Positions 18,113 to 19,737 of a DNA stretch of 32,755 bases are shown here, in pieces. A model generated the notes under the pieces. It made no database searches and had not been told where the DNA came from. It worked only from the letters and a program-made list of their open reading frames with translations. Every line of letters starts with the position of its first letter. Position 1 is the stretch's first letter. Source of the stretch: Planctomycetota bacterium (GTDB lineage Bacteria; Planctomycetota; UBA8108; UBA1146; JAKEFC01); NCBI GenBank assembly GCA_022616235.1, contig JAKEFC010000141.1:1-32755 (forward strand), written 5' to 3'. The position numbers and the translations under genes were made by a program.

Positions 18113-18168
18113 AAAAAAAAAGACCCAACCCGAAAGGGGGAAATTAGGGGAATGTTCCGGGCCGGGTC
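18113..18168 (-). terminator. Intrinsic terminator of the candidate small RNA
   Basis: On the minus strand GACCCGGCCCG pairs with CGGGTTGGGTC over 11 positions (two are G-U), with a 25-base loop, followed immediately by nine T residues. On the plus strand the same arms have two A-C mismatches and no T tract follows, so the signal is minus-specific. No minus-strand protein gene lies upstream before the promoter at 18326-18354. Confidence 0.85.
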
Positions 18169-18319
18169 GTATGTCTAGTTGTCCTAAATTACGTTCGGGA
18201 CTCGTGCTCCTTCGCCTCCCCCATTCGCATTCGCTCGCTTGCGCCGCTCGGTTCGCGAGCGCATGCGCGATGCGGATTTCACCTAGCAGGCCACTGCGAA
18301 GGCCAATCCCCGAACTTAG
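18113..18319 (-). ncRNA. Candidate structured small RNA, 6S-like architecture
   Basis: A transcript from about 18319 to the T tract near 18113 (about 205 nt) is bounded by its own promoter and terminator and contains no plausible reading frame. Its 5' and 3' parts fold back on each other: GTTCGGG (18315-18309) with CCCGAAC (18199-18193); a 6x9 internal loop; CCTTCGC (18302-18296) with GCGAAGG (18215-18209); a large 21x10 central bubble; CGCAT (18274-18270) with ATGCG (18230-18226), continued by CGC/GCG across a bulged A; and an apical hairpin CGCTCG-CGAAC-CGAGCG. A closing stem, central bubble and apical rod are the known architecture of 6S RNA, which mimics an open promoter and binds sigma70 RNA polymerase. 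The identity is inferred from shape and length, not sequence match; another regulatory RNA is possible. Confidence 0.5.
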
Positions 18320-18325
18320 CTTGAC

Positions 18326-18354
18326 AGTTTAGCGGTGGGGCTACCCTCGGTCAA
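18326..18354 (-). promoter_or_regulatory. Sigma70-type promoter for the candidate small RNA
   Basis: On the minus strand TTGACC (18354-18349, five of six consensus bases) is separated by 17 bases from TAAACT (18331-18326, four of six). The expected start is near 18319, just before the first paired arm of the RNA. Confidence 0.6.
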
Positions 18355-18428: not shown

Positions 18429-18457
18429 TTGACCTGACTTTGGACAGTGCCTATAAT
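18429..18457 (+). promoter_or_regulatory. Near-consensus sigma70 promoter for the aminotransferase gene
   Basis: TTGACC at 18429-18434, a 17-base spacer and a perfect TATAAT at 18452-18457 predict a start near 18464, giving a leader of about 60 bases before the GTG start at 18523. It is the best promoter match I found in the window and diverges from the small-RNA promoter. Confidence 0.75.
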
Positions 18458-18522: not shown

Positions 18523-19737
18523 GTGCCGATTTCCCGCGAAGTCCGCGAAGCGCTCACTCGCTCCTCCTGGATCCGCCGCATGTTCGAGGAGGGCACCAAG
18601 CTCAAGAAGCTGCACGGCGAGGACCAGGTCTTCGACTTTAGCTTGGGGAATCCCGACCTGCCTCCTCCCGAATTCTTCACGAACCGCCTCCGCGAAATCC
18701 TGGAGCGCCCGCCCCCGGGGCTGCACCGATACATGCCGAACGCGGGCTGGCCGGAAGTGCGCCAGAAGATCGCCGTGCAGCTCGAGCGCCGCTGCGGCCT
18801 TCCTTATCGAGGAGAGAACATCGTCATGACCGTAGGCGCGGGAGGCGCGTTGAACGTCTGCTTGAAGGCGATCCTCGACCCCGGCGATGAGGTCATCGTC
18901 TTCGCCCCGTATTTCGTGGAGTACCACTTCTACATCGCGAACCACGCGGGCCGCGTCGTCGCGGTCGAAACGCGCGGCGACTTTTCGATCGACGCGGAAG
19001 CGCTCGCGAAGGCGATCACCGCGCGCACGCGCGCCGTGATCATCAATTCGCCGAACAATCCGACGGGCGTCGTCTACCGGCACGAGGAGATCGCCGCGGT
19101 CGCCGCGGCGCTCGCTCGCGCGAGCCGCACGCATGGCCGCCCGATCTACCTGATCAGCGACGAGCCGTATCGGAAGATTGTCTATCCGCCGCACTCATGT
19201 CCCGAAGTCGCGCCGCTCTACGAGCACACCGTCTTGATCACCTCGCATTCGAAGGACCTAGGACTCGCGGGCGAGCGCATCGGCTACCTCGCGATCTCGC
19301 CGCGCGCGGCGGATGCCGCGGATCTCTTCTCGGCCTGCACGTTCTGCAATCGGACCCTCGGCTTCGTGAACGCGCCGAGCCTCTTTCAGTGGGCGGTCGC
19401 GGACTGCCAAGAGGCGGCGGTCGACGTCGGCACCTACCGGGAGCGCCGCGATCTGCTCGTGGCGCATCTGCGCGAGTTGGGCTTCGAGCTGGCGGAACCG
19501 GGCGGCGCTTTCTATCTGTTCCCTCGCTCGCCGGTCCCGGACGAGACCGAGTTCGTCACGCGCCTGCTCGAATCGCGCATCCTCGTCGTCCCCGGCAGGG
19601 GTTTCGGACGCCCCGGGTACTTTCGCGTGTCCTTCGCGGTACCGACCGAGACGATTCGCCGCTCCCTGCCCGCGTGGGAAGAAGCGGCGCGCGGGTACCC
19701 CGCGCTCCGGCCCCCGGCCGCAGCGCACAAACACTAG
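18523..19737 (+). CDS. PLP-dependent class I/II aminotransferase
   Basis: 404 residues from the GTG at 18523, with AGGAG 7 bases upstream and a near-consensus promoter. Fold type I aminotransferase motifs appear in order: FDFSLGNPDLPPPEFF, RYMPNAGWPEVRQKIA, TVGAGGALNVCLKAIL (cofactor phosphate contact), INSPNNPTGVVY, LISDEPYRKIVY (Asp contacting the pyridine nitrogen), the PLP lysine in TSHSKDLGLAGERIGY, and a C-terminal FRVSFAVPTE with the substrate-carboxylate Arg. It is closest to aspartate/alanine-type enzymes of amino-acid metabolism; the exact substrate cannot be read from the sequence. An XRE-type regulator gene follows after about 140 bases. Confidence 0.9.
   Translation: MPISREVREALTRSSWIRRMFEEGTKLKKLHGEDQVFDFSLGNPDLPPPEFFTNRLREILERPPPGLHRYMPNAGWPEVRQKIAVQLERRCGLPYRGENIVMTVGAGGALNVCLKAILDPGDEVIVFAPYFVEYHFYIANHAGRVVAVETRGDFSIDAEALAKAITARTRAVIINSPNNPTGVVYRHEEIAAVAAALARASRTHGRPIYLISDEPYRKIVYPPHSCPEVAPLYEHTVLITSHSKDLGLAGERIGYLAISPRAADAADLFSACTFCNRTLGFVNAPSLFQWAVADCQEAAVDVGTYRERRDLLVAHLRELGFELAEPGGAFYLFPRSPVPDETEFVTRLLESRILVVPGRGFGRPGYFRVSFAVPTETIRRSLPAWEEAARGYPALRPPAAAHKH

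Follow-up and report, generated by a model that had tools for sequence, protein, structure and literature searches.

The question raised by positions 18113 to 18354 of the window, the whole 32,755-nucleotide stretch of planctomycete DNA that was analysed, is what kind of RNA, if any, is made from the minus strand there. A reading made from the sequence alone had described a self-contained small-RNA gene with a 6S-like shape, which might be a diverged member of the 6S family or, failing that, a new RNA family. The presence of its own promoter and terminator, together with a single conserved copy and kept synteny, bears out the idea of a self-contained gene; the same copy number and synteny, combined with the lack of an Rfam match, also bear out the fallback of a new family. 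The locus looks like a free-standing small-RNA gene in a little-studied planctomycete lineage, with a predicted transcript whose parts are listed in Table 1, and it apparently represents a real small-RNA family that has not been described.

Table 1. Features of the small-RNA locus and its divergent neighbour, in window coordinates.
Feature	Position	Strand	Basis
Small-RNA promoter TTGACC-N17-TAAACT	18326..18354	-	consensus scan
Predicted small-RNA transcript, ~204 nt	18113..18318	-	start inferred ~8 nt past the -10 box, 3' end set by the U-tract; predicted folds
5' rod domain with closing helix GUUCGGG/CCCGAAC; sequence specific to the lineage	18193..18315	-	fold z = -2.5
Rod arm GTTCGGG/CCCGAAC	18309-18315 / 18193-18199	-	coordinates confirmed
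Rod arm CCTTCGC/GCGAAGG	18296-18302 / 18209-18215	-	coordinates confirmed
Apical arm CGCTCG/CGAGCG	CGCTCG at 18256-18261	-	coordinates confirmed
Linker from rod to terminator hairpin; partly a local hairpin UUAGG..CUAG	18169..18192	-	predicted fold
Conserved 3' hairpin GACCCGGCCCGG...UUUCGGGUUGGGUC, 14-pair stem	18122..18168	-	covariance-model matches, identity, z = -3.6
C-rich terminator loop CAUUCCCCUAAUUUCCCCC, putative base-pairing site	18136..18154	-	C-tracts kept in all relatives
U9 tract, intrinsic terminator	18113..18121	-	sequence
Divergent aminotransferase-gene promoter TTGACC-N17-TATAAT	18429..18457	+	consensus scan
Class I/II aminotransferase gene, divergent, synteny anchor	18523..19737	+	Pfam PF00155, E = 1.4e-51

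The minus-strand promoter was found by a consensus scan where the sequence-only reading had placed it. It matches 9 of the 12 consensus letters, and the region contains two promoter-like sites versus 0.2 expected in shuffles. When compared with dinucleotide shuffles, the whole RNA on the minus strand has z = -2.2 (6 of 200 shuffles were equally good), the rod alone has z = -2.5, and the terminator hairpin has z = -3.6. The plus strand folds no better than its shuffles (z = -0.6), and on that strand the terminator lacks a U-run. Furthermore, a coding reading is ruled out by comparison between lineages, in which the short ORFs differ in both position and sequence and none is kept. Conservation along a protein frame, which the earlier reading had named as evidence that would speak against an RNA, was looked for and is absent.

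The most conserved part of the element, the near-invariant loop of its terminator, had gone unmentioned in that reading. It had proposed an 11-bp terminator with U9; the U9 tract is present, but the stem consists of 14 pairs and closes a 19-nt loop. Within this single loop lie two C-tracts, in the motif AUUCCCC-N-UUUCCCCC. Both C-tracts are kept in all relatives, the stem is kept as well, and the spacer between the tracts varies in sequence and length; in one genome, G024, the MFE structure partly pairs the loop. Invariant C-tracts separated by a variable spacer fit pairing sites rather than a plain terminator, for which a long conserved loop would be needless. Across relatives, variation in the stem is one-sided only, with no two-sided pair changes, and consequently covariation gives no independent proof of the hairpin. 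The hairpin is supported instead by conservation and energy.

The distribution of the element follows this hairpin. In a DNA search of 59 relatives, only the final 50-65 bases were matched, with identities of 91-98% within the order and of 80-82% in two class genomes from a different family. Two more short DNA matches, in distant genomes, lie inside the rod and received no confirmation from the hairpin model. This covariance model (R1), which was used for class-wide and phylum-wide searches, matches 17 of the 29 class genomes, with one confident copy in each (E from 1e-12 to 1e-17); besides the window's own genome, the carriers are 14 genomes from its order and 2 from elsewhere in the class, with hairpins 87-100% identical. 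Among 392 sampled planctomycetes, the model matched no genome outside the class. Within the order, G015 and G016 gave no match to the model, as a result of either assembly gaps or true loss. In one other family of the class, the hairpins of L136, L137, and L146 are GC-rich, have a stem (CGGCCCGG) resembling that of the small RNA, lack the C-rich loop, and look unrelated to it. Weak model matches in other families of the class were rejected as ordinary terminators or coincidences. Scanning 84,980 species of bacteria and archaea for the pattern gave 29 matches, including actinobacterial, Azospirillum, and other sites that do not fold into the hairpin, and members outside Planctomycetota were rejected, these extra matches being coincidences. 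The named records found by the scan are planctomycetes or unlabelled MAGs, and two that stand under other phylum names are contigs of order members.

How strongly the hairpin is held can be judged from its neighbour. Its identity is 96-100% to the order members tested and 87% to G024, while the adjacent aminotransferase protein has 59-65% identity over the same distances. A hairpin that stays nearly identical as its surroundings diverge points to much stronger selection on the hairpin than on those surroundings.

The conserved C-rich loop suggests that the RNA is an antisense mRNA regulator and not related to 6S. On balance, the element is probably a stand-alone regulatory RNA of ~200 nt, the founder of a so far undescribed RNA family within a single class of planctomycetes, which acts in trans through this loop. 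In such a model, transcription would proceed from the RNA's own minus-strand promoter and end at the intrinsic terminator, whose stem would display the 19-nt loop that carries both C-tracts (AUUCCCC and UUUCCCCC). Action of the loop in trans is most likely: the tracts would pair with G-rich stretches of mRNA, chiefly Shine-Dalgarno sequences such as AGGGGGAAW. Pairing with several mRNAs would block ribosome binding and thereby repress translation. The 5' rod most likely shields or presents the RNA and would be free to vary between lineages. Antisense action is proposed here by inference from sRNAs with C-rich loops; as in that trans-acting class, the gene stands alone and encodes an RNA whose C-tracts are conserved and unpaired.

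The 5' domain has a different history. Of the features that the sequence-only reading had listed, the arms GTTCGGG/CCCGAAC and CCTTCGC/GCGAAGG and the apical CGCTCG/CGAGCG were located as described, but the 21x10 central bubble is not clean, because small local helices take up part of it in the MFE structure. In relatives, the 5' region ranges from ~145 to 325 nt in length, the longer ones being branched, and for most comparisons its identity is near the shuffled level; a partial exception is G009, with 71% identity versus 60% shuffled. Predicted folds close the rod by end-to-end pairing in several lineages, and a partner permutation that set the own 3' partner of each lineage's 5' end against foreign ones gave p = 0.04 for the closing helix, kinship being uncorrected. 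Cross-lineage alignments of the rod are unreliable for covariation, and the weak support from the permutation concerns the closing helix. Near 18307-18312 of the window, in L066, L075, and L076, and in most lineages, there is a GGGGA tract that could pair with the C-rich loop. Intramolecular sequestration of the loop by this 5'-domain tract was tried as an explanation and rejected; though the tract is present in most lineages, its overall excess is not significant.

If the 3' hairpin alone were functional, the transcript would be processed and the rod discarded, leaving a stable C-rich hairpin regulator of 50-65 nt. The near-invariant block in family f2 does have an abrupt start, a few bases 5' of the stem (UUCCUGAAGACCCGG), with little conserved upstream of it, and this alternative deserves some, though rather little, credence. 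However, promoter-like boxes recur ~155-335 nt 5' of the hairpin in most relatives (for example, TTGACA-N16-TACAAT in G006 and TTGACA-N17-CATAAT in G024), and in most members the predicted fold of the 5' region is more stable than those of shuffles. Both results suggest that the 5' region is not mere filler.

For the favoured reading, an RNA that pairs in trans with mRNAs, the search for targets covered loop complements, the Shine-Dalgarno pattern, and sodB across the class, and found no conserved target. Candidate sites such as AGGGGGAAAU before ATG do occur in these genomes, in some relatives at clpP, sodB, and a porin gene (the names are our own reading of the sequences). The 17 genomes that carry the RNA have 136 AGGGGGAAW-N3-10-ATG sites versus 30 for the reversed pattern, and the excess is equally strong in class genomes that lack the RNA (43 versus 6). 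Given that the excess is no smaller where the RNA is missing and that no target is conserved, these G-rich sites may simply be Shine-Dalgarno sequences of the usual kind. Full complements of the loop are no commoner than controls. In a single sub-clade (L197-L200), the sodB ribosome-binding site, GAGGGGGAAAUCC-AUG, is a 10-base complement of the loop; when followed class-wide, this complement is missing from the other lineages and from the window's own genome. With the Shine-Dalgarno excess unspecific and the sodB site limited to a sub-clade, no target is established.

The outcome of these searches, by loop complements and at sodB, is one that would also be expected if the loop were bound not by mRNA but by a protein, perhaps of a C-rich-RNA-binding or cold-shock type, which the RNA would titrate. 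The invariance of the single-stranded loop is compatible with this idea as well. Nevertheless, no protein partner can be named and no Rfam family is matched, and we regard protein titration as unlikely.

Membership in the 6S family is rejected by Rfam, by whole-genome scans with RF00013, and by a phylum-specific model. At the locus, an Rfam search with E up to 10 gave nothing except two chance matches; the 6S models, with which the earlier reading had proposed a comparison, were among those that did not match, as was the model for 6C/B11 (RF01066). No other Rfam family was found in the window or its relatives. Over the window's genome and all class genomes, RF00013 detected 6S in 0 of 29, as opposed to 68 of 148 sampled planctomycetes. 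As a guard against RF00013 being too distant, a planctomycete 6S model (R2) was built from 26 aligned 6S RNAs (alignment A3), wrong-strand matches having first been turned. This model, which has 17 base pairs, is not very strong, and had no check against held-out 6S RNAs, gave at most 3.8 bits and no match at the locus; across the class it found no credible 6S (best E = 0.03), and two full-length matches that were inspected do not have 6S-like sequence. It should be noted that the RF00013 match to planctomycete 6S is often antisense (in about half of 28 aligned loci, among them L099, L101, and L103-L106), because these RNAs are nearly self-complementary. In alignment A3, planctomycete 6S has a closing ACCUCUGC/GCGGAGGU helix immediately 5' of the U-run, and this helix is absent from the window sequence. 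Nor do the relatives have a conserved rod with a large central bubble, as judged from the near-shuffled alignments and the spread in length. By these sequence comparisons, the small RNA is not a member of the 6S or 6C families, and the description of it as 6S-like, or as a diverged 6S, is unsupported, since neither model matches and conservation of the rod does not go beyond chance.

A class without detectable 6S does leave slight room for an RNA that would stand in for it functionally, on the model of Ms1, a 6S-like RNA that is weakly conserved and syntenic, bears extra end hairpins, and occurs in lineages where 6S is missing (PMC9130861). The rod of a diverged 6S or Ms1-like substitute would mimic an open promoter and bind RNA polymerase, with the terminator being incidental, and the pairing of the rod ends in several lineages could be read in this way. 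However, the seat of conservation is the terminator loop, both the sequence and the length of the rod are unconserved, longer rods branch, and the 6S models and the closing helix of true planctomycete 6S argue against it. A 6S/Ms1-like role of the rod is unlikely, and we consider a substitute of this kind quite improbable as an account of the RNA. Equally hard to credit, if not more so, is a global regulator with two functions, which would have taken over 6S/Ms1-like control of the polymerase through its fast-evolving rod and would work as an antisense RNA through its terminator loop.

The genomic neighbourhood bears on the last alternative. In those order members whose contigs cover the neighbourhood, the small RNA and the PF00155 aminotransferase gene are divergent neighbours, the RNA lying just 5' of the gene. 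In most order members, the gene 3' of it is on the opposite strand and convergent, as is the alpha/beta hydrolase gene in the window. This arrangement argues against a leader, a riboswitch, or a read-through terminator of the upstream gene, and by synteny a riboswitch or leader is ruled out. That the element is a mere transcription terminator or the leader of a neighbouring gene is highly improbable, even with a good intrinsic terminator and, in G024, a SIS-domain, GmhA-like gene that follows on the same strand, because the loop sequence is conserved, no same-strand protein gene ends upstream, and the opposite strand has no U-run.

With its near-invariant loop, one copy per genome, and fixed synteny throughout the class, the family is a defined object for testing. 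In a limited literature search, no characterised base-pairing sRNA was found in Planctomycetota. If the trans-acting model is correct, the RNA would be another independent case in which C-rich loops antagonise G-rich ribosome-binding sites. Furthermore, the undetectability of 6S in a class of 29 genomes is itself a testable puzzle.

Among known systems, B11/6C of actinobacteria has cytosine-rich loops that are reported to pair with ribosome-binding sites (PMC10470900). The small RNA resembles it in having cytosine tracts in a hairpin loop; however, 6C has two C-rich stem-loops, whereas here both tracts lie in one terminator loop, the phylum is a different one, and the 6C model gives no match at E up to 10. 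In RepG of Helicobacter pylori, the C/U-rich loop of the terminator is the pairing site (PMC8295292), a position that the putative pairing site shares; RepG targets a homopolymeric G-repeat, whereas the likeness here comes with no demonstrated sequence relationship and with candidate sites only. The C-rich regions of RoxS/RsaE, FsrA, and other such sRNAs of Bacillota act on mRNAs, Shine-Dalgarno sequences included (PMC8216469). These too are single-stranded C-rich regions, but they are set in another architecture, and the small RNA matches none of them in Rfam. With 6S RNA (RF00013), the element shares a comparable size, a rod-like 5' part, and a stand-alone gene; it differs in matching no 6S covariance model, in having a rod and bubble that are unconserved, and in its conserved terminator loop, which is foreign to 6S. 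Finally, Ms1 of actinobacteria is similar in its rod and end hairpins, its conserved synteny, and its occurrence in a lineage without typical 6S, but polymerase binding is hypothetical for the planctomycete RNA, and the part that has been conserved in it is the terminator loop.
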